Below are positions 819 through 27,304 of a stretch of 32,635 nt of DNA, one piece after another. A program made the position numbers and the translations under genes. The stretch's first letter is position 1, and each line of letters begins with the position of its first letter. The DNA lies in NCBI GenBank assembly GCA_945957375.1, contig CAMFKX010000024.1, positions 1 to 32,635 on the forward strand, in the 5' to 3' direction. Origin of the DNA: an uncultured Roseiarcus sp. (lineage in GTDB: Bacteria; Pseudomonadota; Alphaproteobacteria; Rhizobiales; Beijerinckiaceae). Under the pieces are notes generated by a model. The model was not told the origin of the DNA. It made no database searches and was given only the letters and a program-made list of their open reading frames with translations.

Positions 819-2102
819 TCAGCCGTTGCTGTTGACGGCGATCAGGGAGGCGAGCGCGGCCACCTCCTGAGTGTAGTAGCCGGCGTTCGGCGACGACTGG
901 TAGATGATGTGCTCCATCGGCGCCGGGGCCTCCGGGTCGATCGACCAGGTCCAGATCCCCTGCGACAGCTGCGACGCCGGGTTCTGCTCCGGATCGAGCC
1001 AGCATTTGCCCCCGACCAGGAAGCCGACCGTCTTGCCCCACTTGAAGAAGTCGTTGACCCGCTCGGTCGCGTCGCGCAGCAGCTGCGGCGACGGCGGCTT
1101 GTCGACCGCCCACAGCGTCACCTGGTCGATCGCGTCGTAGATCATGTCGAGCGCGGTGCGCACCGACTCGAACTGGTAGTTGGCGTCGTCCGAGCAGTTG
1201 CGGTTGCCCCAGCGCCGCCAGCCGGAATATTGCGGCTGGCCGTTCTGGCCGAGGTTGACGATCGTGGTGATGTCGTTGCTGTTGAGCGTGTTGGCCTCGC
1301 AGGCCGGATCGCTCATCGCCCAGTCGATCGGCGACGACACGCCGCCGACGCCGGCGAACACCTGGTTCGAAGGCGAGTACCAGAAGCCGAGGTCGCGATG
1401 CACCCGAGCGGTGAGGCCGGCGGCCGAGGCCGAGGCCGGCATCGCGACATAGGACGACGTCGCCGAATCCCACACCATCACGTTCGGATAGAACAGCACC
1501 AGGCGCGCGTCGGTGTAGAGCTCGCGATAGGCGAGCGCGTCGGCGTCCGAGGTCGCCGGCGTGTCGGCGTAGACCCGGCCGCGCAGCCGCGCCGCGATCG
1601 GCAGCGCCGCCGCGACGACCGGGTTGGCGAGCTTCGTCCCGCCGGTCCCGGTCGGCTGGTAGGCGGTGAAGCCGGGCGCGATGATCGTGCGCGGCTGGAC
1701 GCCGACATGGCTGCGGGCGCCAAGCAGCGCGTAAAGGCCGGTCTTGCCCGCGGCCGAGCCGATCACGTTGGTCATTTCCGCGGCGATGTCGGGCGCCCCG
1801 CCCGAGGTCACCGCGCCGGCGACGCGCACCACGACGACCTGACCCGCGCCTTCGGCGTAAACCTGCTGCACCGCCTGGAGGAGCGTGCCGGGGTCGCCGT
1901 GGGTCGGCACGGTGGCGTTAAGCTTGAGCGCCAGACTGGGCTGGGAGTTGAGCAGCACCGGCTCGTTGAGGGGAAACGCGGCCGGGTCGGCCCCGTCCGC
2001 GACGCCGAGCAGGCCGACGACGCCGGACGGGTTGAGCGCGACCGGCTGCGAGGCCGACGGGAGCTCGACCGTCTCGACGCCGTGCAGGAAGGACGTGGTC
2101 AT
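819..2102 (-). CDS. Contractile tail sheath protein (P2 FI-like)
   Basis: The 427-aa protein (P2 FI is 396, Mu L 495) is the contractile sheath subunit. It has an N-terminal FLHGVETVELPSASQPV, then VIGLLGVADGAD-like strands. IIAPGFTAYQ follows near residue 140, then RDLGFWYSPSNQVFAGVGGV around 240. A C-terminal domain (YDAIDQVTLWAVDKPPSPQL, then GKCWLDPEQNPAS) interlocks neighbouring subunits. It defines the particle as a myovirus. Confidence 0.95.
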   Translation of the reverse strand: MTTSFLHGVETVELPSASQPVALNPSGVVGLLGVADGADPAAFPLNEPVLLNSQPSLALKLNATVPTHGDPGTLLQAVQQVYAEGAGQVVVVRVAGAVTSGGAPDIAAEMTNVIGSAAGKTGLYALLGARSHVGVQPRTIIAPGFTAYQPTGTGGTKLANPVVAAALPIAARLRGRVYADTPATSDADALAYRELYTDARLVLFYPNVMVWDSATSSYVAMPASASAAGLTARVHRDLGFWYSPSNQVFAGVGGVSSPIDWAMSDPACEANTLNSNDITTIVNLGQNGQPQYSGWRRWGNRNCSDDANYQFESVRTALDMIYDAIDQVTLWAVDKPPSPQLLRDATERVNDFFKWGKTVGFLVGGKCWLDPEQNPASQLSQGIWTWSIDPEAPAPMEHIIYQSSPNAGYYTQEVAALASLIAVNSNG

Positions 2103-2213: not shown

Positions 2214-4154
2214 TCAGAGCCCGCAGGTGTAATCGAGCCCGATCGTCGTCGGCGTCCCGCCGGGGTTCACGACACGGCAGATCGCATCGGGGAGCGGTCC
2301 AGGGGTCGCCAGAGCCGTATTGACGGTGGCGTACAGGCTCGCGTCGTAGGTGTCGCCGATCGCGTATCCGCCGGCCCACGTCTCGGTGGCGGTCCAGGGC
2401 TCGCCCCATGTGTTGTCGTGGAAGTTCCAAGACACGATTGGGTCAAACCGGCCGTCAGGTGAGTTCCCGCCGCTATGCGGAACGCCCTCGCCGAGGAAGA
2501 TGTTGTTTTTGACGATGCCGTTGAGCGTGCTGTTGGTCGTGTACTGGTAGCCGAAGAACCCAACGATATTGCCATATACGTTGGGCGTCCAAGTCGACGG
2601 ATCACCGGTCGCCGCCGCCGCGGACATGTAGAGCGAGTAGCCGTTGAAGGCCAAAGATCCGCGGAATACGTTGTTGAAGAAACGCATCCCTCCGGTCAGC
2701 GTTGCTGGCGTGCTCCAGAAGAATCCGCCCTTGACCATGACGGCGCCGCTCTCGACCTGGTTGTTCGAGAATTCGATGTCGCTCCAGCCCCCAGACGGGT
2801 CGGACGACAGGTCGTAGATCTCCATCGCGTCGGCGTGCGCGCCCGGCGCCTGCGTGATGTCGTCGATTCGGTTGCGCCGCACGCGCGAGTGCTGAAGCTG
2901 GTTTGTGACCAGCGCGGAGGACGTCGTGCTCAGGATGTGGTTGTCGGAAACGTCGGAGTTCGTCGCCCCTTGCACGCCCATGCCGTGACCGATCAGCGGC
3001 CCGACGACGTTGTGGCTCACGTTCAGGTGGTCAGGGCTGCCTACAATGGCGATGCCGGCCCACGTCCCGCTGATGTTGATCGTGTCGTGGACGTTGTTGT
3101 TGGTGACGGTGATGTACGCGCCGCCGGTGTCGCTCCAGATGCCGGCGGCGTGGTAGTCTCCGCCGCGATCGGCGATCCCGAGGATTTCGAACCCGTCGGC
3201 CGTCCAGTAGCTCTTGCCGGAGGCGACGATGCCCTGGTGGCGCGACGACAGCGCGACCGTGTGGACCCCGGGCGACACCTTGGCGACGAGCTTGGTCCCG
3301 CCGCTCTCGAACGCGAACTGGCCGAACGACGCGATGAACGCGCGGCTGTTGAAGAAGTGGACGTGGCAGCAGGTGGTGTCGCCGCTGGGAGGACGCAGGT
3401 AGGTCGGGTCGCTCCAGGTGAGGACGCTGCTCGTGTACGAAGTCACCGCGCCCTGATGGTTCGTGTTGCCCGACTCGTAGACGCGGACATAGAGGTCCGG
3501 GTAGCGACTCGGGTCGATCCCGGCCATCACGGTCGCGACGGCGCTGTCGCCGGTGATCGTCGGGGACGAGGCCCCCAGCTCCGACCACGCGAACGAGATG
3601 GTCACGTCGTCGATATGGTCGACCGGCGTTCCGCTCGACCCGAGCGCGGGGTAGGCTGATGGGTACTGCTTGACGCCGTCGATGTAGACGAGCGTCCCTT
3701 GATTGATCGCCGGCGCGCTCACAGTGGTCAGGTCGGCGATCGCGAGCCCGCCGCCGAGGTCGGTGAAGTTGAGGCTATAGTTTGCTAGCCCGCTGATGAT
3801 GGCCTTCCCGGTTCCCCATCCCGTGCCCTCGTAGATGATCGGGGCGCCGCCCGATCCGGACCAGTTCACGTCGATCTCGCCGAGGTACGGGACGCCGCCC
3901 TTGAAGGCGACCATGTCGCCGGCATGAAGCGTGATCGCCGCCGGGCCTCCGGTCGCGGTCGGATCGCCGGGCGCGTGCTTGAACGCGGTGGTCGGGGACA
4001 GGCCGTCGCTGGCGTCCGAGCCGCCGGCGTAGTCGATGTAAAACGTCCGGCCCGCGTGCGGGGGGAGCGACAGGCCGCCGCTGGAGACGCAGACGAAGGC
4101 GACGGCGGGGCCCGCGAGCGCCAGCGCCGCCGCGCCGAGGATCAGCCGGCGCAT
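2214..4154 (-). CDS. Signal-peptide-bearing right-handed beta-helix protein
   Basis: The 646-aa protein begins with a clear signal-like sequence (MRRLILGAAALALAGPAVA, cleavage predicted before FVCVSSGG). A FYIDYAGGSDASDG start of the DUF1565/pectate-lyase type follows. About residues 235-560 contain successive parallel beta-helix rungs with Asn ladders (YITVTNNNVHDT, LNVSHNVVG, SDVSDNHILS, IEFSNNQVES, MRFFNNVF, IVKNNIFLG). It is probably a polysaccharide lyase or glycan-binding spike. It overlaps the preceding gene by TGATG and has no terminator behind it. Multiple cysteines (CC in the middle, YTCGL at the end) fit export. Confidence 0.82.
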   Translation of the reverse strand: MRRLILGAAALALAGPAVAFVCVSSGGLSLPPHAGRTFYIDYAGGSDASDGLSPTTAFKHAPGDPTATGGPAAITLHAGDMVAFKGGVPYLGEIDVNWSGSGGAPIIYEGTGWGTGKAIISGLANYSLNFTDLGGGLAIADLTTVSAPAINQGTLVYIDGVKQYPSAYPALGSSGTPVDHIDDVTISFAWSELGASSPTITGDSAVATVMAGIDPSRYPDLYVRVYESGNTNHQGAVTSYTSSVLTWSDPTYLRPPSGDTTCCHVHFFNSRAFIASFGQFAFESGGTKLVAKVSPGVHTVALSSRHQGIVASGKSYWTADGFEILGIADRGGDYHAAGIWSDTGGAYITVTNNNVHDTINISGTWAGIAIVGSPDHLNVSHNVVGPLIGHGMGVQGATNSDVSDNHILSTTSSALVTNQLQHSRVRRNRIDDITQAPGAHADAMEIYDLSSDPSGGWSDIEFSNNQVESGAVMVKGGFFWSTPATLTGGMRFFNNVFRGSLAFNGYSLYMSAAAATGDPSTWTPNVYGNIVGFFGYQYTTNSTLNGIVKNNIFLGEGVPHSGGNSPDGRFDPIVSWNFHDNTWGEPWTATETWAGGYAIGDTYDASLYATVNTALATPGPLPDAICRVVNPGGTPTTIGLDYTCGL

Positions 4155-7100
4155 CAGTGATAGGTCCACGACCCGCCGCCGTCGCAGGCGACCATCTGCG
4201 TCGTCGTGCCGGCGCCGGGAGAATAGGTCGTGCCGCAGACGCCCGTCAGCGACGCGCCGTCGGACACCCAGGCCGTCGTGCGCGCGCGGTCGGCGTTGCA
4301 GACCGGCAACGCGTTCGCGCCCGTGCCGGAATAGGCGAGGGTCGCCTGTTGCATCCCGCCGGCGATGACGCCGTCGATCGTGACGCCCGGGTTCGCCGGG
4401 TCGAGGTTGCCCTTGATCAGCGGCGTCGACCCGCTCGTCTCGCAAATGCGCAACACGTCGCTCTCGCCGGCCGTCGCGGCGTCACAGTTCGACGACGTCC
4501 CGAGATAGATGTTGCGCGACCCGGTCGAGAGGGTCGATGAGGCGACGCCCTGGCCGAGCAGCAGGTTCGACGAGCCGCCATGGAGCGCCTGACCGGTGTC
4601 GGCGCCGAGGGCGGTGTTGTTCGTGCCCCAGGCGTTTTGCAACGCCTGGAAGCCGACCGCCGTCATGCCGGACCCGCCCCGCGTGCCATAGACGCCCGCG
4701 CCCGCGCCATTGCCGATGCAGGTCGCTTGCACCCCGGTTGTGAGCGCATTGCAGGCGCCGCTGCCGAACGCCGTCGTTCCGATGGCGCTGGTCGCGTTCT
4801 TGGCCGCCCCGTTGCCGAAGGCGGTGACGCCATAGCCGCCGCCGGCCCCGCCGATCGGCGTGACGCTCAGGCCCGCGTTGTGGCCGAACAGCGTGTTCCC
4901 GGCCGTGTTGGCGGCGGTCCACAGGCTGATCCCGGTCGAGTCGGTCGCGACCTGCATGCTCGTCGGATCGGTCGACGGAATGAAGACCGGGCCGAAAACG
5001 GAATTCTGGCTTTCGCTCTGCGTCGGCTGGGTGAGGCCCCATCCGGTCATCTGGTTGCGCGCGAAATAGTTCCAGCTGTTCACGCCGTCGTCCGCGGCGA
5101 AGGCCACGCCGACGCCCGCGCCCGCGGCCGTGTTGAAGCGATTGTCGTAGTAGCGGAGGCTCCCTCCCGTTTGACCGACGAAAGGAGCCGCCCATACCCC
5201 GGACCCGGCAGGGGCCATCTCGGAATCGTGGATCGTGAGCGTGCCGCCGCTCACGTTGGCGCACGAGTAGGCCGGGTTCGAACATTGCAGCGTGCCGTCG
5301 GCGAGGGTCACGGTTCCGCCGTTCACCGCCACGGCGAAGTCGCTGCCCTGATAAGACCCGATCCGGTAGCCGTTGACGGTCAGCCGGGCGCCGCCCGACA
5401 CCGACACGATGGTCGGCCAGCCGCCGGCCGCGCCGTTCGGCCCGGTCCCGGCGGTCGCGTTCTGCAGATTGGCGATCTGCGCCGTGCCGCCGGCCTGGAG
5501 CCAGCGCGCGCCGTCCATCGACAGGTTGGTGAACTGCCACTGATCGGCCGAGTTCGACGCGTCGGCGAGCACGTTGATGTTGCCGTAGGAGTTCTCGCTG
5601 TCGGTGACGCCGAGCCAGTCGACGCGCCCGGCTTCGATCGAGATATTCGTTCCATCCGTGGCGATGCCGTGCAGCCCGGCCATCGATCCCGGAACGCCGA
5701 AATTCCAGAAGTGCCAGCCGGAGATATGGACGCCGTCGAGCGCGCCGACCTGGCCGCCCCCAATGGTGTCGGGTCCGCCGAGCAGGAGTCCCTTGACCAG
5801 CGAGCCGCACTCGACGTTGTCGTAGAACGCGCCGCCGGTGTTCCCCCTCGCGTCGATGCAGAAGGAGCCGCCGCCGATCCGCACGTTCTGGATTTTCAGG
5901 CGGCCGACGTTCTGCATGAAGACGCCGGGCGGGAAGGCGACCAGGTTCGCGCGCACGGCCGTGTCGGGCTGCGAGAAGGCGATGCCGAAATCGCGCAGGA
6001 TCGGCCCGGTCGCGCCGCCGTTCGGCGGGGCGTAGACGACGCCCGGGGCCGAGAGGTTGAAGCTTGTCGACGCGACGTTGAACACTGTCCGTGTCGGGCC
6101 GTCGCCGTAGAGGCAGGAATTATCCTTCGGCAGCGTGAGCGCATCGGTGACCTTGTAGTTTCCGGCGGCGACGTGGACGCAGGTCAGCGGATGCGCGCCG
6201 TCCGTCGGGTTGCCTGAATTCGTGCCCGTGCGGGCCGCCAGATTGATCGCGTCCGTGCTGTCGGCGACGCCGGTCGGGTCGACGCCGTAGTCCGAAGCCT
6301 CGGTGACCAGGACCTCTGGACTCGCGTCGCGGGTCGTCTCCCCCGCGTTCGCGTGCGCGACAACGGTCGGCGACGCGGCGTTGTTCACCAGCGTCTGGTT
6401 GACGTTCCCGGTCCAGGCGTTCCCGGTCACGCTGACATTGGTCGCGCCGTTCGCGATCGTGACGGGATAGGCCTGCCAGGTCGGGTGAATCGCGTCGCCG
6501 ATCGTATTCCCGGTGACCGTGAGGCCGCTGACCGTCGCGGCGACGTCGACGCCGTTGCACGCCCCCGCGGTCCCGCCGTCGCCGTTGGCCGAATTCCAGT
6601 GGACGTGCGCGTTGGCGAACTGGCCCTGGTCGCCCTCGATCGAGACGCCGGACCCGGTCGCGTTGGCGACGCCGCCGCCGATCCATTGCCACTTCGTCAC
6701 GCCCGGTCCGACGTGGAGGCCGCCGCTGGCGGCGCACGAGGCGAAATTGCCCTTATGGCCGGCGTGGGTGAGGCCGTTGACGAATTCGAGGTTGAGGCCG
6801 GCGAGCAGGTTGACGTTCCACCCGGTCGCGAATTCCGCCCCGAGGTCGCTGAACTGGATGAACTGCGGCTGTCCGGACGAGCCGACGGCGTTCGACGTGC
6901 GCACCTCGTCGCCCGAGATATCGGAGACGTCGCAGTTGCGGCAGACGATCGTCTCGACCTTGCCGTCCATGAGGTACGCGACCTGCGCGGTCGAGCTGTC
7001 GCCGAGCGTCCCGTACGAATAGCCGTAGACGTCGGTGATGTCGGCGCAGCACGTCGTCCCGGTCGCGCTGGACTGAAACGCCAGGATCGAGCCCTGTTGC

Positions 7101-8338
7101 GAGAAGAAGCTGAACACGCGGGCGTGCGCGAGGGTCAGGTCGTTCGAATTGTAGAATCGCATCCCGGAATACGGGTGGTCGAAATCGACTTCCGAGAGGG
7201 CGAAGGCGTGCGCCCCGGAGGCGTTGAGGCCCCAGCCTGCGGCCTTCCCGGTGTCGCGGAAGTCGATTTCCCTGAGGAAGTTCTTTTGCGTGCCGGTGAT
7301 CGTCACGTCGTCCGACGCGCCGGCGCTCGCGATGAAGGTGCAGACCTTCCGCGCCCCTTGCAGACCGGAGTTCGAGTAGCGATACGCGATCGGCGAGGAG
7401 ATCCGGTAATAGCCGCAGGGCAGCGAGCAGGATGCGCCGACGCCGTCGTTGTTCGAGCCGCCGGCGTTGACGCAGGCGGTGATCGCCGCGGTGTCGTCGT
7501 GCAGGACGGTCGCGCCGGAAACCCCATTTGCGGGCCGATCCGCAACGGTCAGGTTTGTCGTCCCCCCGCCGTCCGCGATCGTCGTCACCAGCCAGTCGTT
7601 CTGGGACGACGACGGCGGCGTCGACGGGACCCACCACGGGCGGTGCGGCGCGCGGTCATTGCCCGACTGGTCGTAGCTTTGGAGGCCGGTGTCGACGTAG
7701 GTCGTCCCCTGCCCGGAGTAGAGGTAGAACCAGCTTCCCCCGTTCGTCTGCTTCCAGATGACGTAGGCGGCCGCGCCGCTCCCCGGCGTGATCGCGATTG
7801 CAACCCGGTTGGCGGCCGACAGCGTGGCGGCGCCGTTCGAAACCGACGTCGTGACCGGCGCGCCGACGCCGCCGGCCGCGTCCACGCTCGCGATCTTGTA
7901 GGTATAGGTCGTCGATCCGGCCGCCCCGACGACGCTGGCCGTCGCGGTCGGCGCGGACGCGGAGAAGGTCGCGCCGGCGCCGACGACGAGCACGCCCTGC
8001 CCATTGGCGAAATCGAGAGCCGAGTCGAGGGTCAGCGCGGCCGATCCCGCCGACATCGAGCCGACGGTCTGCCGACTGGATCCGGAGGCGTTCCGGACCA
8101 CGAGAGGGCTCAGCAATTTCGGCGTCACCCAGATCGCGCTGTCGCCCGTCCCGACGAACACGCCCTGCCGAAATTTCCAGAGGCCGCTCTCGTCATTGTC
8201 GCCGTTGTTGAGCGGGATGGTGGCGCCCTCGGTCCCGATCGGCAGGTTTTCATTCGGCCGATAGCCGGCGAGCGCCGGCGCGGCGCCGGCGGCGAGGGCG
8301 AGGTCGAGCGCGACGAGCCGGGTCAGAATTGCAGCCAT
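4154..8338 (-). CDS. Giant double beta-helix tailspike-like protein with signal-peptide-like N-terminus
   Basis: This 1394-aa protein starts with a hydrophobic segment (residues 1-24, ending PALA, then GYRPNENLPIGTEG) that resembles a Sec signal peptide. A short unique region and an Ig/FN3-like segment (TTYTYKIASVDAAGGVGAPV) follow. A first pectate-lyase-like beta-helix begins near 278 (DDTAAITACVNAGG). A second begins near 679 (DYGVDPTGVADSTDAINLA, a Pectate_lyase_3 hallmark). Residues about 1150-1290 carry YadA-head-like repeats (FGNGAAKNATSAIGTTAFGS), then a Cys-containing C-terminal knob. The shape is that of a trimeric depolymerase spike. The start has GGAG 7 nt upstream. Several cysteine pairs and a signal sequence are odd for a cytoplasmically assembled virion protein. 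Confidence 0.85.
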   Translation of the reverse strand: MAAILTRLVALDLALAAGAAPALAGYRPNENLPIGTEGATIPLNNGDNDESGLWKFRQGVFVGTGDSAIWVTPKLLSPLVVRNASGSSRQTVGSMSAGSAALTLDSALDFANGQGVLVVGAGATFSASAPTATASVVGAAGSTTYTYKIASVDAAGGVGAPVTTSVSNGAATLSAANRVAIAITPGSGAAAYVIWKQTNGGSWFYLYSGQGTTYVDTGLQSYDQSGNDRAPHRPWWVPSTPPSSSQNDWLVTTIADGGGTTNLTVADRPANGVSGATVLHDDTAAITACVNAGGSNNDGVGASCSLPCGYYRISSPIAYRYSNSGLQGARKVCTFIASAGASDDVTITGTQKNFLREIDFRDTGKAAGWGLNASGAHAFALSEVDFDHPYSGMRFYNSNDLTLAHARVFSFFSQQGSILAFQSSATGTTCCADITDVYGYSYGTLGDSSTAQVAYLMDGKVETIVCRNCDVSDISGDEVRTSNAVGSSGQPQFIQFSDLGAEFATGWNVNLLAGLNLEFVNGLTHAGHKGNFASCAASGGLHVGPGVTKWQWIGGGVANATGSGVSIEGDQGQFANAHVHWNSANGDGGTAGACNGVDVAATVSGLTVTGNTIGDAIHPTWQAYPVTIANGATNVSVTGNAWTGNVNQTLVNNAASPTVVAHANAGETTRDASPEVLVTEASDYGVDPTGVADSTDAINLAARTGTNSGNPTDGAHPLTCVHVAAGNYKVTDALTLPKDNSCLYGDGPTRTVFNVASTSFNLSAPGVVYAPPNGGATGPILRDFGIAFSQPDTAVRANLVAFPPGVFMQNVGRLKIQNVRIGGGSFCIDARGNTGGAFYDNVECGSLVKGLLLGGPDTIGGGQVGALDGVHISGWHFWNFGVPGSMAGLHGIATDGTNISIEAGRVDWLGVTDSENSYGNINVLADASNSADQWQFTNLSMDGARWLQAGGTAQIANLQNATAGTGPNGAAGGWPTIVSVSGGARLTVNGYRIGSYQGSDFAVAVNGGTVTLADGTLQCSNPAYSCANVSGGTLTIHDSEMAPAGSGVWAAPFVGQTGGSLRYYDNRFNTAAGAGVGVAFAADDGVNSWNYFARNQMTGWGLTQPTQSESQNSVFGPVFIPSTDPTSMQVATDSTGISLWTAANTAGNTLFGHNAGLSVTPIGGAGGGYGVTAFGNGAAKNATSAIGTTAFGSGACNALTTGVQATCIGNGAGAGVYGTRGGSGMTAVGFQALQNAWGTNNTALGADTGQALHGGSSNLLLGQGVASSTLSTGSRNIYLGTSSNCDAATAGESDVLRICETSGSTPLIKGNLDPANPGVTIDGVIAGGMQQATLAYSGTGANALPVCNADRARTTAWVSDGASLTGVCGTTYSPGAGTTTQMVACDGGGSWTYH

Positions 8339-8658
8339 GTCGACGCTCCTGCGGACCAGACGAGAGTGAAGGCGGTGTTGGCGCGGCCGAAGGCGACGCC
8401 GCCGGCGTCGCCGTCGACGCTCGCGGCGATGGTCGACGTCCCCGCCATATCCTTGATGAAGACGGGCGAGGCCGACGGATCGAGCGCGATCGTCAGCCCC
8501 GGCGCGGTGATCACGTAGAAGCCGGGCGCGGTCAGCGGGGCGGCCGGCTGCGCCGCGATCATGATGGGCGCGCGCAGGAGCAGCATCAGCGTCTGTCCGG
8601 CGCCGACGACGGCGGCGCCCTGGAGAACGACGGGCCGGGGCGAGACGGCGATCGTCAT
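8323..8658 (-). CDS. Hypothetical protein before tailspike gene
   Basis: The 111-aa beta-rich protein (MTIAVSPRPVVLQGAAVVGA, then TAPGFYVITAPGLTIALDPS, ending WSAGASTWLQF) is of unknown family. Its 3' end overlaps the start of the 1394-aa beta-helix gene by 16 nt. The ending in aromatic residues is common in small virion proteins that adopt a beta-sandwich. A tail-tip or fibre-adaptor role is an inference from position only. Confidence 0.55.
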   Translation of the reverse strand: MTIAVSPRPVVLQGAAVVGAGQTLMLLLRAPIMIAAQPAAPLTAPGFYVITAPGLTIALDPSASPVFIKDMAGTSTIAASVDGDAGGVAFGRANTAFTLVWSAGASTWLQF

Positions 8659-9029
8659 CGGGTCACTCCCGGCAGCACGCTCACCGTCATCGGGGCGGCG
8701 GCGAAAAGGTTGAGGCGCAGGCCGTCGCCTTCGGCGATGAGGTCGGCGACATAGGCGCCGGGCGTGAGCGCGACGTTGGCGGCCGCCGGGCTCCAGAACG
8801 TCAGCGTCCCGGCGCCGCCGCCGTTGACCAGGCCGCCGTTGAGAGTCGAGAGGTCGAGCGCGACGGAGCCGAGGTCGAGCGGCCGGACCTGCATGTGGAA
8901 GGCGATGCCGGTCAGGTCGATCGGGCCGCCGCCACCCGGCGCGTCGAATCGCCAGGCGACGAGAAAGTCGGCGTTGCCGTCGATCGTCATGGAGCCCGCG
9001 AGTTGCGGCAGGGCGAGGATCTGCGTCAC
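8655..9029 (-). CDS. Beta-rich tail-associated protein, unknown
   Basis: The 124-aa protein reads LPQLAGSMTIDGNADFLVAW, then IDLTGIAFHMQVRPLDLGSV and LTPGAYVADLIAEGDGLRLN, and is beta-rich. The pattern recalls the N-terminal domains of baseplate-attached fibre proteins (BppU-type), which is a weak comparison. The start is GTG in a GTGA overlap, and the stop overlaps the next ATG (ATGA). Confidence 0.6.
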   Translation of the reverse strand: MTQILALPQLAGSMTIDGNADFLVAWRFDAPGGGGPIDLTGIAFHMQVRPLDLGSVALDLSTLNGGLVNGGGAGTLTFWSPAAANVALTPGAYVADLIAEGDGLRLNLFAAAPMTVSVLPGVTR

Positions 9030-9703
9030 GCGTTGACGCCCGCGATAACGATCGCCGGCGGCGCGGCGACCTGCCGGGGAACGACGGCGTTGACCTCGGT
9101 CGCCACGGCGGCGATCGCCGTCTCGAACGTCGCGAGCGCCGCGGCCAGGTCGCCGGCCGTCGTCGCCGCCGCGACAGCCCCCTGGAGCGCGAGCAGCGCG
9201 TTGGACAGGTCGAGACTTGCGCCCTGGAGCGCGACGACGACAGCCGCGAGCGCCACGACGTCGCCGGAGCCGTCGGATTTTCTCAGTCCGTAGGCGAGCG
9301 CCAGGTTGGCGAAGCGCGCCGCCATCGGACCGGCGGTCGGCGCCGCGCCGCCGTTGCCGTTGACGATCGAGGCGGCGTTGGCGAAGGCGGTCGCGTGGGT
9401 CGCATCCGGCTCGATCGCGCCGACGATCGCGTCGCAGACCGCCGAGGCGGCGGCGACGACCTGGGCGGCGAGCTGCGCCTGCGTCGGCGGCGAGGGCGCG
9501 ACGTAGGCGCCGATCGTCCCGTAGGCGCCGGCGAGCGCGTCGGCGAGCACCTTCTGGCCGTGCGCCTCGACGTCGTTCGGATGGGCGACGAAGGCGACCG
9601 ATTGCCCGTTGAGCGTCGCGTCGAACGCGACGGCGGTGTGATCGACGTCCGCCCAGCGCGGATTGGTCAGGCCGGCGAGGAAGTTCGGAAGATTGAAAGC
9701 CAT
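9026..9703 (-). CDS. Tail-associated Ala-rich protein, unknown
   Basis: The 225-aa protein starts MAFNLPNFLAGLTNPRWADV. A short domain (DATLNGQSVAFVAHPNDVEA) is followed by a very Ala/Val-rich helical C-terminus (AALATFETAIAAVATEVNAV). I do not recognise the family. Its position right after the fibre suggests a fibre-assembly or fibre-associated role. It is separated by 1 nt from the fibre gene and overlaps the next start by GTGA. Confidence 0.6.
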   Translation of the reverse strand: MAFNLPNFLAGLTNPRWADVDHTAVAFDATLNGQSVAFVAHPNDVEAHGQKVLADALAGAYGTIGAYVAPSPPTQAQLAAQVVAAASAVCDAIVGAIEPDATHATAFANAASIVNGNGGAAPTAGPMAARFANLALAYGLRKSDGSGDVVALAAVVVALQGASLDLSNALLALQGAVAAATTAGDLAAALATFETAIAAVATEVNAVVPRQVAAPPAIVIAGVNA

Positions 9704-9704
9704 G

Positions 9705-10910
9705 TCACGCGACCCTTTGCCAGAGCGGCAGCCCGTAATCGCCGGTCAGGCTCGGCGCGTAGCCCCCCGAGGTCACAGCCAGCATGGAGCCGTTCGAGGT
9801 CGATCCCGCGTAGGTGATGACGTTGATCCAGCTGCCGCCGTAGGTTCCTGACGGATTGGTCAGGCAAGCCAGCACGCTCCCGACGCCGCCGATCCCGAAG
9901 CTGTAGTTCGCGCCCGGCGCCCCTGGCGCCCCTGGCGAACCCGGCGCCCCGGCCGCCCCGGTCGCCCCCGCCGGGATCGTGAGGTTCAGCACCTGGTGGG
10001 GCGCCGTCCCGGTGACGGTGGCGGCCGCGCTCGATCCCGCCGCCCCGGTCGTCACCGTCCCGATCGACAGCGTGTTCGCGATCGCGCTCGGGATGGTCGC
10101 CGCCAGGGCCGCCAGCGCCGCCTTGATCTGCTGCAATGTCGGGAACGGCCACAGGAAGCTCGATGCGGCGTCGGGCGCGCCGGCGGTGAACTCAGCCGCC
10201 GTCGCCGCGCGCGTCACCCCCAGCGCCGCGAGTTCGCCCGCGTCCGTCAGCGGCGTCGCCGGCTGCGACGCCTTGGCGACGGAAAAGACGCGGTCGGTCC
10301 AGCCGGCGGGCGAGACGGTGTCCGCCTTGGCGAGGGGCGCGACGCAGGTCGGCAGGTTGGCGTTGAACGCCGCCTGCACCTGCGCCATCGACACGAACGC
10401 CGCCGAGGGCGGCGTCAGCACGACCGTCCCGAGCGACAGCCCGACCGAGGCGACGAAGGCGAGATCGACCGCCGCCCCGTTGGCCGTCACCAGCTTCGGC
10501 ATCAGCGTCGTGCCGGCCAGCATCGCCGTCCCGGCCTCGTCGGTGATGATGAACTCGGTGACGTAGAACGGCCCGATCTCATTCCCGCCGGCGTCGACCG
10601 CCGGCACGACGCACAGGATGTCGACCTGGTTCGGATTGGCCGTGTCGACCGTGACCGCCTGGACGATCGCCCCGCGCCACACCTCGTGGGTGACGGCGCC
10701 GGTCGTCTGCAGCGTCGAGATCGCCGGCACCTGCGCGCCGGCGCCGCCCACGTTGCCGTCGCCGAGGATCACGGTGGCCGAGGTGAACTGGATCTCGGGC
10801 AGCGGACTCGAGCCGCCGGCCGCCGCCAGGATCGCGTTCGACCGGTTGATATAGGCCTGCAGCGGAACGGTCGCGACCTGGATCGCGGCGATCGACGGGA
10901 GGGTGGTCAT
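9705..10910 (-). CDS. Tail fibre protein with collagen-like repeat
   Basis: The 401-aa protein has an N-terminal phage tail-fibre-like region (PFYVTEFIITDEAGTAML around residue 115, as in P2 H-type fibres). A helical middle follows, then a short collagen-like Gly-X-Y run (seven triplets, about residues 314-334), and a C-terminal domain ending GGYAPSLTGDYGLPLWQRVA. It is probably the trimeric receptor-binding or adaptor fibre attached to protein I. It starts in an ATGA overlap with I and ends 1 nt before the next gene. Confidence 0.8.
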   Translation of the reverse strand: MTTLPSIAAIQVATVPLQAYINRSNAILAAAGGSSPLPEIQFTSATVILGDGNVGGAGAQVPAISTLQTTGAVTHEVWRGAIVQAVTVDTANPNQVDILCVVPAVDAGGNEIGPFYVTEFIITDEAGTAMLAGTTLMPKLVTANGAAVDLAFVASVGLSLGTVVLTPPSAAFVSMAQVQAAFNANLPTCVAPLAKADTVSPAGWTDRVFSVAKASQPATPLTDAGELAALGVTRAATAAEFTAGAPDAASSFLWPFPTLQQIKAALAALAATIPSAIANTLSIGTVTTGAAGSSAAATVTGTAPHQVLNLTIPAGATGAAGAPGSPGAPGAPGANYSFGIGGVGSVLACLTNPSGTYGGSWINVITYAGSTSNGSMLAVTSGGYAPSLTGDYGLPLWQRVA

Positions 10911-11506
10911 AGCGGATGCACCTTGATCTGCGGCAGGAAACGCGACGTCGCGCCGACGGCGGGCATCGGCCGCGCGGCGACCCGGTTGGCGACGGAAAGG
11001 CCGATGCGCTGCGCCGCGGCGACGAACAGCGCGGCCGGCGGCTGGGTCACCCGCACGCGCGGCCGCGGCATGTCGCGCACGTTCTTGCGCCGCATCGCCG
11101 AGGCGAGCGCCGCGCTGAGGTCGGGCGGCGTCGGACCGGGCGCCATGGCGACCTCGACGACGAAGTCCGGAAACACCAGGTCTCGCTCCTCGAACCATTC
11201 GCGGATCGCGACCGGGCTCCCGATGTCGAGCGCGATTTCGGCCTCGAGCGCGGTCGCCGAGCCGTAGGCGGCATGGTCGCTGAAGCTCGAGGCGGTCCGC
11301 GCCCGGTTCCCGGGCTCGTCGGCCGGATCATAGAAATGGACGCTCCGCTCCCAGGCGAGGAACGGCGTGACCGCCGACGGACAGGCCGCCGGATCGCGCG
11401 CGCGGCGGATCGCGTCGACGTCGGCCGACAGCACGCGCCGGTCGGCGGCGCTCTGGGCGCGTTCGAACGGGGTCGCGTTCGGAGGGAGGAGGTCGTCGGC
11501 GCTCAT
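10907..11506 (-). CDS. Tail protein I (P2 gpI-like)
   Basis: The 199-aa protein (P2 I is 176) has PPNATPFERAQSAADRRVLS at the start, DPAACPSAVTPFLAWERSVH near residue 45 and AIREWFEERDLVFPDFVVEV in the middle. These are typical of the tail protein I family. It is a wedge protein linking the baseplate to tail fibres. It overlaps J and the fibre gene by ATGA. Confidence 0.92.
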   Translation of the reverse strand: MSADDLLPPNATPFERAQSAADRRVLSADVDAIRRARDPAACPSAVTPFLAWERSVHFYDPADEPGNRARTASSFSDHAAYGSATALEAEIALDIGSPVAIREWFEERDLVFPDFVVEVAMAPGPTPPDLSAALASAMRRKNVRDMPRPRVRVTQPPAALFVAAAQRIGLSVANRVAARPMPAVGATSRFLPQIKVHPL

Positions 11507-24920: not shown

Positions 24921-25796
24921 TCAAGCGGGGTTGAAACGGACCGCCGCGCCGGTCGAGGCGGGCGGTTTCGCGCCGCCGGCGAGGCGGCCGATGGCGACGT
25001 CGGCGTGAGCGCCGGCGAGAACCATGCGGAAGGCGGCGTCGTCGCCGCCCGGCGAAAGGTTGTGATCGGCGCGGAACGCACGCACTGCGGCGAGCGTCAT
25101 CGGACCTTCGTCGCCGTCGGCGCCGGCCGGGCCGCAGGAATAGCCGAGCGCGATCAGCGCGCGCTGGACGTCGGTGGTCGACGCGATCGCGGGCGTCGCG
25201 GCCGCCGGCGTCGCCGCGGCGACCATCGCGCGGCGCGGCTCGCCCCAACCTTCGAGGACCGCGTCGACCCGCTGAACGATGTCGGCCTTCGACACCCGCG
25301 AGCCGGGACAGGCGTGGCGGTCGCGCGCGCATTCGCGGTGGAAGCGCAGCACCCGGGCGATATCCCAGCCGAATTTTTCGCAGAGCGTCGCGAGCACAGT
25401 GACGGCGTTGTCGCGCACCTTCGCGCCCGGCCCCCAGCCGAATTCGTCGCCGCCGGTCTCGAAATTGCCGACCATCTCGACGGCGAAGGTTTCGTGATTC
25501 CAGCACGACACCGACACGCCGTCCTGCTCCGGATCACAGAGCATCCAGATGTAGTCGGGGCAGCAGACGACATGCGGGCCGGCGTGCCAGCCGAGGCCGC
25601 GGTAATAGTTGTTGAGGGCGCCGCCCCAGCGCTCCTGCGCCGTCGCCCCCATCGCCATCCACTGGGCGAGCGAGGGCACGCCGGTGTTGTGCAGGGTGAT
25701 CGAGGCGGGCTTCCAGCCCTTGGCGTACTTCAGCCCCGAGACCGCGATGCGGAATTCAGCGGCGGTGAAGTGCGTCGGGTGGGTGCAGAACGGCAT
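24921..25796 (-). CDS. Endolysin: N-acetylmuramoyl-L-alanine amidase with peptidoglycan-binding domain
   Basis: This 291-aa modular lysin cleaves the amide bond between N-acetylmuramic acid and the peptide. The N-terminal amidase_2 (PGRP/T7-lysozyme-type) domain shows zinc-ligand candidates His36 in LHNT and His161/Cys163 in DRHACPG, plus the WHAGPH strand near residue 70. An Ala/Pro linker leads to a C-terminal PG_binding_1-like domain at about 207-252 (DVQRALIALGYSCGPAGADG). There is no signal peptide, so it would need the holin-like protein encoded next. The start at 25796 was chosen because the longer open frame runs through mor. It is the first gene after the putative Mor promoter. Confidence 0.9.
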   Translation of the reverse strand: MPFCTHPTHFTAAEFRIAVSGLKYAKGWKPASITLHNTGVPSLAQWMAMGATAQERWGGALNNYYRGLGWHAGPHVVCCPDYIWMLCDPEQDGVSVSCWNHETFAVEMVGNFETGGDEFGWGPGAKVRDNAVTVLATLCEKFGWDIARVLRFHRECARDRHACPGSRVSKADIVQRVDAVLEGWGEPRRAMVAAATPAAATPAIASTTDVQRALIALGYSCGPAGADGDEGPMTLAAVRAFRADHNLSPGGDDAAFRMVLAGAHADVAIGRLAGGAKPPASTGAAVRFNPA

Positions 25797-25800
25797 CGTC

Positions 25801-25818
25801 GGCTCCAGGAACGGAGCC
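25801..25818 (-). promoter_or_regulatory. Hairpin covering the endolysin ribosome-binding site
   Basis: A 6-bp inverted repeat (GGCTCC/GGAGCC, 6-nt loop) ends 4 nt before the endolysin ATG. The GGAG inside its 3' arm is the apparent Shine-Dalgarno sequence, so the stem could reduce endolysin translation. This is visible base pairing; a regulatory effect is inferred. Confidence 0.35.
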
Positions 25819-25864
25819 AACGGTAAATTCGGGACGATCCCGGATTGAGAGTGCGAACTCGCAC
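25813..25864 (-). promoter_or_regulatory. Candidate Mor-dependent promoter (Pm/late)
   Basis: In the 100-nt gap after mor, a perfect inverted repeat GTGCGA-AC-TCGCAC lies at 25851-25864. Reading leftward, a possible -10 hexamer TACCGT lies at 25825-25820, which would put the start near 25813. That places the dyad centre about 44 bp upstream of the start, close to the position Mu Mor uses. No good -35 hexamer is visible, as expected for an activator-dependent promoter. The start point is inferred. Confidence 0.4.
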
Positions 25865-25896
25865 CGCTGCGCCGGCGGGCGCGAGAAGCGGCGACC

Positions 25897-26295
25897 TTAC
25901 CGTCCCTTGAGCGGAGTGAAAAGATCGGGCCGCTCGTCGTCGGTCTCGCGCATGCGCGCCTTGTGCCAGAACATGTGGCGGCGCGAGCTGCGGAAGCGGG
26001 CGGCGACGGCGTTGGCCGACTCGCCGTCGGCGAGCGCCTTGCGGATGGCGCGGACCCGTTCCTTCTGGCCGCCGACCGGGTTGGTCGGCAGGTCGATCGC
26101 CTCGCCGCCGTACATGGCGACCAGCGCGGCCGCGCCCTTCTCGCCCATAGCTTCGACCAGCCACGGCGCGATCCGGGCGTCGAGCGGCACGTAGATGCGC
26201 TGGCCGCCCTTCGCCCGCGCAAGCCCGAGCACGGCGTCGAGGCCCGCCTCGGCGGCGATCTCGGCGTAGAGCCTGGGCAGCCAGGACAGGCTCAT
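25897..26295 (-). CDS. mor: Mor family transcription activator
   Basis: At 132 aa the product matches Mu Mor (129 aa), the middle-operon activator that binds a dyad upstream of its promoter and recruits RNA polymerase. The N-terminal dimerisation region includes RIYVPLDARIAPWLVEAMGE. A YGGEAIDLPTN strand leads into the C-terminal HTH (ESANAVAARFRSSRRHMFWH). It is the last gene of the early chain. The lysis and morphogenesis genes start about 100 nt downstream behind a candidate Mor site. No second activator (C) gene follows, so Mor may drive late genes directly. Confidence 0.9.
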   Translation of the reverse strand: MSLSWLPRLYAEIAAEAGLDAVLGLARAKGGQRIYVPLDARIAPWLVEAMGEKGAAALVAMYGGEAIDLPTNPVGGQKERVRAIRKALADGESANAVAARFRSSRRHMFWHKARMRETDDERPDLFTPLKGR

Positions 26296-26531
26296 CGCGG
26301 CGCTCGGCCGCGCGGACCGCCTTCGTCGACCATGATCGTCACCACGATTCCGTCGACGACGAGATAGGCGAGACCGTCGGCGAGGATGGTGTAGCGACCG
26401 GCGCGCATGGCCTGCGCGGCCTGCGCGGCGCGGCTGAGCGAGGCGGCGAGCAGCGCCCGCACCGGCTCCGGATTGAGGCCGCCGGCGCGCTCGAGGAAGC
26501 GCAGCAGCGCGTGATCGGAGACCTGGATCAT
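26292..26531 (-). CDS. Small alpha/beta protein next to mor, DUF4258-like pattern
   Basis: The 79-aa protein starts MIQVSDHALLRFLERAGGL, has a helix region, then two strands (RYTILADGLAYLVVDGIVVT). A His-x(3)-Arg-x(2)-Glu-Arg N-terminus followed by a beta hairpin with DG recalls the DUF4258/RelE-like small-protein pattern. That is a weak match and the function is unknown. It is translationally linked (ATGA) to the methyltransferase upstream and to mor downstream. Confidence 0.65.
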   Translation of the reverse strand: MIQVSDHALLRFLERAGGLNPEPVRALLAASLSRAAQAAQAMRAGRYTILADGLAYLVVDGIVVTIMVDEGGPRGRAPR

Positions 26532-27304
26532 GCGAACATCTCCGCCTGCCGGGCGCCGCTCTTCTTCAGCTTCGAGGGCGGGATCCAGCCCGGCACGCAA
26601 CGGCGCGCGAGGATGCGGTCCTCGGGCCGGGTCAGTTCGGCGCGGCAGGGCGGGATCAGGGTGACGTGTAGGGCGCGCGGGCTCCTGAATTGCCAGTCCG
26701 TTTCGCCGAGCTGCGAATAGCGCATCCAGAGAAACCAGGCGTACAGGGTGGCGGTCGAGCCTTCGAGATCGAAGCCGCCCTCGCACATCGGCACGCGCTC
26801 GACGAAGGGGGCGATCAGCGTCGGCCCTTTGTCCGTGAACACGGAACGGAAGCGCGTTTCGCCTTCGAGCCACTGGATCCGCAGCAGCATCGCCACGCCC
26901 TTGGTCGCGGCGATCAGCGCGTGCTCGAGCATCTTCGGCGCCTGGGAGAATGGCGGGTTGGTGATGACCCAGTCGACCTTCGGCGCGCGAAGGACCGCGC
27001 GCTCGTCCAGGAAGTCGAACGCATCGATCTCGTAGCGGCCGGCGTCGCCGCCCTCAACCGGATAGAGGAAGACGTCGCTCGCCCTCACGCTGTCGGCGGC
27101 GCCGCGCAACACGTCGGCCATGTGCCCGAGGCCAGCGCAGGGCTCCCAGACGCTGGCGCCGTCGAGGTTGATCAGGCGTTCTGTCAGCGCCCGCGTCGCC
27201 CAGGGCGGGGTCGGGAAGAATTCGAGCGCGCGCCAGGGCGGCGCGTCGGCGGGAACGGCGCGCTTGCGCGCCATGACGGCGGTCGATCCGGAGGCGACGG
27301 TCAT
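26528..27304 (-). CDS. Phage DNA (adenine-type) methyltransferase
   Basis: This 258-aa class I SAM-dependent methyltransferase shows FFPTPPWATRALTERL (about residues 29-44), the SAM-binding motif EPCAGLGHM (54-62) and catalytic motif NPPF (116-119). NPPF with this layout is typical of N6-adenine DNA methyltransferases. No partner restriction enzyme is present. As part of the phage early operon it most likely modifies phage DNA against host restriction, a role filled in Mu by the unrelated Mom system. A second in-frame Met at residue 11 is an alternative start, but the ATGA overlap favours 27304. The recognition site cannot be deduced. Confidence 0.85.
   Translation of the reverse strand: MTVASGSTAVMARKRAVPADAPPWRALEFFPTPPWATRALTERLINLDGASVWEPCAGLGHMADVLRGAADSVRASDVFLYPVEGGDAGRYEIDAFDFLDERAVLRAPKVDWVITNPPFSQAPKMLEHALIAATKGVAMLLRIQWLEGETRFRSVFTDKGPTLIAPFVERVPMCEGGFDLEGSTATLYAWFLWMRYSQLGETDWQFRSPRALHVTLIPPCRAELTRPEDRILARRCVPGWIPPSKLKKSGARQAEMFA

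Follow-up and report, generated by a model that had tools for sequence, protein, structure and literature searches.

Two spike-slot beta-helix proteins of a Mu-like phage from a Roseiarcus genome as probable Sec preproteins, one sharing a domain with the host lineage

The 32,635-nucleotide stretch analysed in this study (the window) covers positions 1 to 32,635 of contig CAMFKX010000024.1, part of the draft genome GCA_945957375.1 of an uncultured Roseiarcus species, and carries two adjacent genes for beta-helix proteins of 1394 and 646 amino acids (aa), P0001 and P0002. With moderate confidence, and from sequence comparison, we propose that both belong to the late genes of a Mu-like phage, where they occupy the spike slot, that they encode Sec preproteins, one of them with a host-captured domain, and that their products are released by lysis. 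The leader would be removed at the inner membrane, the beta-helix would fold outside the cytoplasm, with disulfides in P0001, and the proteins would exit the cell at lysis at the latest and then act on surface polysaccharide by binding or cutting it. P0001 would owe its C-terminal half to a secreted protein of the host lineage, by capture or by exchange. P0002 has a leader, chromosomal homologues of both proteins have leader-like starts, the two genes lie in a tail operon, and leaders recur on related proteins in other phages.

Genes of a Mu-like phage fill the contig, including those for a transposition protein, Gam, a late activator, terminase, portal, head, baseplate, fibre and sheath, with a baseplate-fibre-sheath order that we take to be P2-like. 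Phage genes occur throughout, and the idea of a host polysaccharide locus was therefore rejected. No junction with host DNA is visible, because the contig stops near the gene following the sheath gene and inside the transposition region. The genes of P0001 and P0002 sit between fibre and baseplate genes upstream and the sheath gene downstream, which is the spike slot, and the stop and start of their open reading frames (ORFs) overlap by one base. A first-pass annotation of this DNA had described two adjacent genes in a phage tail operon, and both the coordinates and the place in a tail operon hold.

Leaders were called with a home-made signal-peptide scorer that uses a weight matrix, the hydrophobic core and the charge of the n-region; on E. 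coli K-12 it was positive for all 19 exported proteins and for none of the 43 cytoplasmic ones. The leader-like N-termini that had been noticed in both proteins fared differently. That of P0002 passes the strict test, with a charge of +2, a core hydropathy of 2.5 and an AxA-like site, and makes this protein the firmer candidate for export. That of P0001 is weaker and fails the strict test, yet its ALA-G site is kept; of the two AxA cut sites first suggested, this one stands, and the best-scored cleavage in P0002 lies at AFV-CV rather than at AVA-F. A wrong start codon for P0001 was considered and rejected, since there is no in-frame ATG, GTG or TTG upstream and AGGAG precedes the ATG. By kinship and cysteines, P0001 is probably exported as well, though its own leader is weak.

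The weight for export comes from relatives, not from the window alone. A 399-aa protein (L094) consists of a leader followed by the spike N-domain phrog_26190, which six annotated phages carry at the N-terminus with no leader (the Xanthomonas phage PBR31 tail spike is one example). The domain was compared at 81 loci, namely the best 80 of at least 579 confirmed ones and L094, the source of the query; of these, 10 have a leader, 69 have none and 2 are indeterminate (9, 69 and 3 by automatic scoring, with L155 then added as a positive); the 10 of 81 is no prevalence, because loci were ranked by likeness to a leader-bearing query protein. Leader-bearing ORFs make up 6 of 47 neighbours of leader-bearing copies versus 1 of 335 beside the others (Fisher p 1.6e-5); this test started from the nine copies scored positive automatically, applied a stricter scorer setting to the neighbours and includes one L108 neighbour that nearly repeats the L108 gene. 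Cysteine tracks the leader in the same family. After removal of rows shorter than 150 aa or more than 90% alike, it accounts for 119 of 5251 residues in leader-bearing copies (2.27%, n=10) versus 124 of 20369 in leaderless ones (0.61%, n=43; p 2.7e-6), with 0.74% and 0.54% in the ordinary neighbours of leader-bearing and leaderless copies, respectively; L186, one of the ten leader-bearing copies, has only 0.55%. None of these statistics corrects for kinship among the leader-bearing phages or among their hosts. In two P22-like phages, the leader-bearing protein is encoded at the expected place of a tailspike, immediately downstream of the head-closure gene in L160 and one gene farther on in L111.

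The same family bears on the possibility that the hydrophobic N-termini are not cleaved and serve for docking to the baseplate, docking having been raised in the first-pass annotation, or as membrane anchors. The location of the genes between fibre and sheath would suit such a role, as would the fact that neither PHROG nor Pfam searches recognised a known virion-docking domain in P0001 or P0002. However, among eight related spike proteins (28 pairs) the 20 residues before the cut are on average 21% identical and the next 90 residues 50%, all eight have Q directly after the cut, and annotated phages have the same N-domain with no leader. Low leader identity together with high cysteine is what a cleaved export signal and oxidising folding predict and a docking peptide would not, and we consider uncleaved N-termini very improbable. 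As a separate observation, an IMG/VR contig (L109:3953-9110) has three consecutive leader-like genes for proteins of 392, about 780 and 545 aa, preceded by genes that by eye resemble those of podophage ejection proteins.

Leaders also occur in viral relatives of the two window proteins, on IMG/VR contigs, which are predicted viruses. A profile scan with the P0002 family found nine viral loci, seven of them distinct (L088/L089 and L090/L091 are 99.98% identical), and a leader directly precedes the domain in six of the seven, five by the scorer and L090 by eye. Adjoining genes often start with leaders, and the flanks include genes for a tape-measure protein (L090), a terminase (L092) and a head-tail adaptor and major tail protein (L093). 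Upstream of one homologue, a gene at L088:5876-7975 is leader-like by eye and negative by the scorer, and has an arabinofuranosidase-type PF09206 match (E 1e-9). Among relatives of P0001, L207 has two adjacent scorer-positive genes, including an upstream 155-aa gene with a weak tail-fibre match (E 1.8e-4), the 320-aa product of L211, which matches in part, is scorer-positive too, and L210 is ambiguous. Outside IMG/VR, the phage contig L224 from a genome of the host genus (G003:C607, 12838-19667) holds four scorer-positive genes and one with a leader by eye, all within the 7.6 kb that follow a terminase gene recognised by tblastn (best E 7e-12); the set includes fibre-like proteins of 714 and 858 aa, the latter cut off by the contig end, scoring 10.2 and sharing part of P0001 (Table 1). 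The genus of L224 is assigned by binning only, its GC content being 59.6% versus 70.6% in the window, and a family search with the 858-aa protein gave no relatives. Searches by tblastn gave no match for P0002 in phages or plasmids, none for P0001 residues 20-290 in phages and one weak match for P0001 in plasmids, and scans of IMG/VR for close relatives of P0001 and P0002 confirmed none.

The chromosome of the same draft genome encodes homologues of both proteins. P0003, which corresponds to the C-terminal half of P0001, passes the scorer, and its gene lies between genes for an ABC-2-type transporter and for a methyltransferase-like protein (each Pfam match slightly below cut-off), in what may be an exopolysaccharide locus. 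In a sister species, a scorer-positive orthologue of P0003 adjoins a transporter gene that is 65% identical. In an alignment of 427 shared columns, identity is 72% between the phage protein and the copy of this host, 42% between the phage protein and the sister-species copy, and 44% between the two host copies; therefore, the phage half came from, or was exchanged with, this host lineage. The locus shared by two species favours capture from host to phage as the probable direction. The genome is a draft of 470 contigs with 4.35% contamination, in which mis-binning of contigs C290 and C384 is possible, less likely so for C290 because the sister species shares the locus. P0004, the homologue of P0002, has a hydrophobic, leader-like start, and its gene neighbours genes for a SpoU-type methylase and a substrate-binding protein. 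Across the order, close homologues are rare, those of P0001 occurring in 8 of 347 genomes and those of P0002 in 3 of 347, this genome counted; four P0001 matches (L018, L019, L022 and L023) are long proteins with no leader by the scorer and by eye. A chromosomal homologue of P0002 at L006:1208-3043 (G000:C35) has neither leader nor cysteine and ends in a Gly/Phe/Asn-rich tail; it may have another exit route from the cell, or none.

Such kinship also allows the leaders to be vestiges of secreted host genes that were captured with them, now decaying on ordinary spikes assembled in the cytoplasm. The Asp in the leader core of P0001, the 73% identity of its C-terminal half to a chromosomal protein, the position of the genes in the spike slot and the many leaderless spikes of the same group are consistent with this account. 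On the other hand, the match to P0003 is confined to the C-terminal half of P0001 (residues 678-1328) and the N-terminal parts differ, so the P0001 leader was not carried over with the P0003-like half. Moreover, leaders are kept in diverged viral relatives, where their sequence is little conserved while the Q that follows the cut is constant, and cysteine tracks the leader in the phrog_26190 family. We therefore regard decay from captured genes as improbable.

The position before the sheath gene was compared in eight IMG/VR loci chosen by a sheath identity of 67-70%. In five of them (L027, L028, L029, L030 and L033; the L029 gene is the same as that of L028) the gene directly before the sheath gene is scorer-positive, and in L031, L032 and L034 the scorer flagged no leader on the slot gene. 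Another 20 stretches, lying upstream of more distantly related sheaths, had few flagged ORFs. The slot is thus variable and repeatedly, though not always, holds exported-looking proteins. Both slot genes tested for a CHAP domain have one (L028, E 1.3e-5; L033, E 8.1e-9), and the leader and CHAP proteins at L028:9197-9898 and L033:257-877 are a further exported protein of lytic type encoded among tail genes. These leaders with CHAP domains speak for the slot as a site for any exported cargo, in which case P0001 and P0002 may be free polysaccharide enzymes with no role in the tail. However, the endolysin of the window is encoded elsewhere (24921-26222, Amidase_2), and the spike slot of other phages has leaders in front of spike N-domains; a cargo site is possible, if on balance unlikely. 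The first-pass idea of exported glycan-active enzymes gains from the leader-like chromosomal homologues, from recurrence in independent phages and from the link of cysteine with the leader in one spike family, while glycan activity would follow from the fold only.

The beta-helix fold, proposed for both proteins at the outset, is borne out in P0002 by a match to PF13229 (Beta_helix; E 2.5e-6, 27.6 bits, cut-off 25.9); its structure prediction was unusable (mean predicted local distance difference test score, pLDDT, 34). Full-length P0001 has no Pfam match at E 0.1; its residues 677-1394 match PF12708 (E 1.7e-5, just below the family cut-off), and 13 of 17 aligned members of the family of this segment match PF12708 at E 0.01, in the pectate-lyase-like group. 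The model of residues 677-1394 has a mean pLDDT of 64 with the first ~430 residues mostly confident, and residues ~677-1110 resemble PDB structures of tailspikes and of secreted polysaccharide enzymes, at Foldseek E values of 1.6e-5 to 2.2e-4 and TM-scores of 0.26-0.42. The tailspikes LKA1 gp49, Sf6, CBA120 TSP3 and phi29 gp12 have this fold and the same place in a tail operon, but differ from the window proteins, in which no virion-docking domain was recognised, residues 98-283 of P0001 being shared with the fibre-like L224 protein; to our knowledge, none of the four has a signal peptide. A three-sequence profile of the P0002 family matches the alginate lyases 7o7a and 7o84 and the PL6 lyase 6qps (E 2.8e-4, 2.9e-4 and 0.017), within about 55 N-terminal columns; with a ten-sequence profile these matches are gone and other beta-helix proteins match weakly (best E 4.6e-5). 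Pfam searches found no peptidoglycan-cleaving domain in P0001 or P0002. Both proteins had also been called cysteine-rich, which is true of P0001, with 23 cysteines (1.65%), against a baseline of 27 in 5187 residues (0.52%) across 20 other phage genes of the window; the ten cysteines in the part shared with P0003 are all conserved. As P0002 has 5 (0.77%), cysteine richness was rejected as a trait common to both.

A number of observations weigh against export of both proteins. P0001 fails the strict test because Asp12 breaks its hydrophobic core and its net charge is zero (score 6.7 at ALA-GY), and among 25 viral relatives of this protein there is one clear leader, that of L207. One of 20 other correctly framed phage genes of the window passes the scorer, as do 9 of 185 internal pseudo-starts, a false-call rate of about 5% in this GC-rich phage; since these pass too, the leader signal of the window taken alone is a hint and not proof. 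The first-pass annotation had argued that two leaders in a row are no chance event; random N-termini of the two compositions are strict positives in 198 and 116 of 20,000 draws. The start of P0004, which lacks a basic residue, does not pass the strict test, and no leader was scored in P0005 (a 30% homologue) or in the viral P0002 homologue L087. The closest named relative, L085 (sheath 81% identical), has a leaderless 1518-aa protein in the slot. P0002 has only 5 cysteines, and in its family cysteine and leader are not linked (leaderless L087 1.67%, P0002 0.80%, P0004 0.34%), and the contrast is weak in the P0001 family (1.68, 1.90 and 2.61% versus a leaderless median of 1.12% and maximum of 2.86%, n=18); because of this, the cysteine argument needs care when it is carried to the window.

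Some of these points would fit export of P0002 alone, the N-terminus of P0001 being a chance Ala/Leu-rich stretch. Its strict failure, the passing pseudo-starts and the 262 of 20,000 random N-termini as good as that of P0001 favour such a view. Against it, proteins that share parts of P0001 do pass (the 858-aa L224 protein, P0003 and L207), and P0001 holds its 23 cysteines. We give this explanation little chance and retain export of both proteins as the preferred reading.

Two described systems come close to the one proposed here. WceF of Pantoea stewartii, an exopolysaccharide-cluster enzyme with a tailspike-like beta-helix fold and a Tat signal peptide (PMC7949094), is by its description the nearest analogue of P0003; as described there, it differs in using Tat rather than Sec and in being encoded by a bacterial gene outside a phage tail operon. 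Lys44 of phage fOg44 is described as an endolysin exported through the host Sec system with cleavage of its signal peptide (PMC6116005). The route proposed for P0001 and P0002 resembles that of such endolysins in combining a late phage protein, a signal peptide and host Sec, but the endolysins of that account are peptidoglycan enzymes and not spike-slot beta-helix proteins (PMC6116005). No paper dealing with tail-spike signal peptides came up in the open-access literature searched.

Table 1. Positions of the two genes, their parts and their neighbours in the window
Feature	Position	Strand	Basis
1394-aa beta-helix protein P0001, spike slot	4154..8338	-	ORF, Pfam, model, Foldseek
Leader-like N-terminus of P0001, residues 1-24, ALA-GY, Asp12 in core, strict test failed	8267..8338	-	Scorer
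AGGAG, 7 nt ahead of P0001 ATG	8346..8350	-	Sequence
P0001 residues 98-283, 34% identity (E 6e-11) to leader-bearing 858-aa fibre-like L224 protein	7490..8047	-	
P0001 residues 680-1338, 73% identity to chromosomal P0003 of the same draft genome	4325..6301	-	
646-aa beta-helix protein P0002, 55% identity to chromosomal P0004	2214..4154	-	ORF, PF13229
Predicted Sec-type leader of P0002, residues 1-19 to AVA-F; scorer cut two residues further	4098..4154	-	
111-aa gene upstream of P0001, 16-base overlap; no leader, no PHROG or Pfam match	8323..8658	-	
124-aa gene, phrog_1084, conserved in IMG/VR relatives; border of variable cassette	8655..9029	-	
Tail-fibre genes upstream; weak tail-fibre PHROG matches, PF12571 above cut-off	9026..11198	-	
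Tail sheath gene downstream, phrog_23 (E 2.9e-89); query for finding relatives	819..2102	-	

Other genes are listed for completeness. The gene after the sheath gene (292-804) matches phrog_55, labelled head closure, at a position where a P2-like order would presumably put the tail tube. A DNA methyltransferase gene (phrog_799, 26528-27304) lies in the early/middle region of the phage. The slot protein of L085 (L085:4616-9172, from a metagenome-assembled genome of an uncultured Rhizobiales bacterium) has nine He_PIG Ig-like stretches (PF05345).

Spikes set which bacteria a phage infects, and the current view is that they are built onto the particle inside the cell; P22 spikes can join finished heads in vitro. 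As a tentative and rather doubtful extension, we raise the idea that in one class of tailed phages the receptor-binding or depolymerase proteins are exported by Sec, fold with disulfides outside the cytoplasm and join the virion only at or after lysis; the window proteins would be one instance, carrying a domain acquired from a host polysaccharide locus. If so, the particle would be completed outside the cell interior, and if a subset of spikes is exported first, the rules of assembly, of disulfide folding and of spike sharing between particles would change. Free depolymerases would then gain a direct genetic cause. Within a single draft genome, the case also points to exchange of sequence between a polysaccharide-type locus of the host and the spike cassette of a phage, and it advises annotators against putting leader-like starts in such cassettes down to misplaced start codons.

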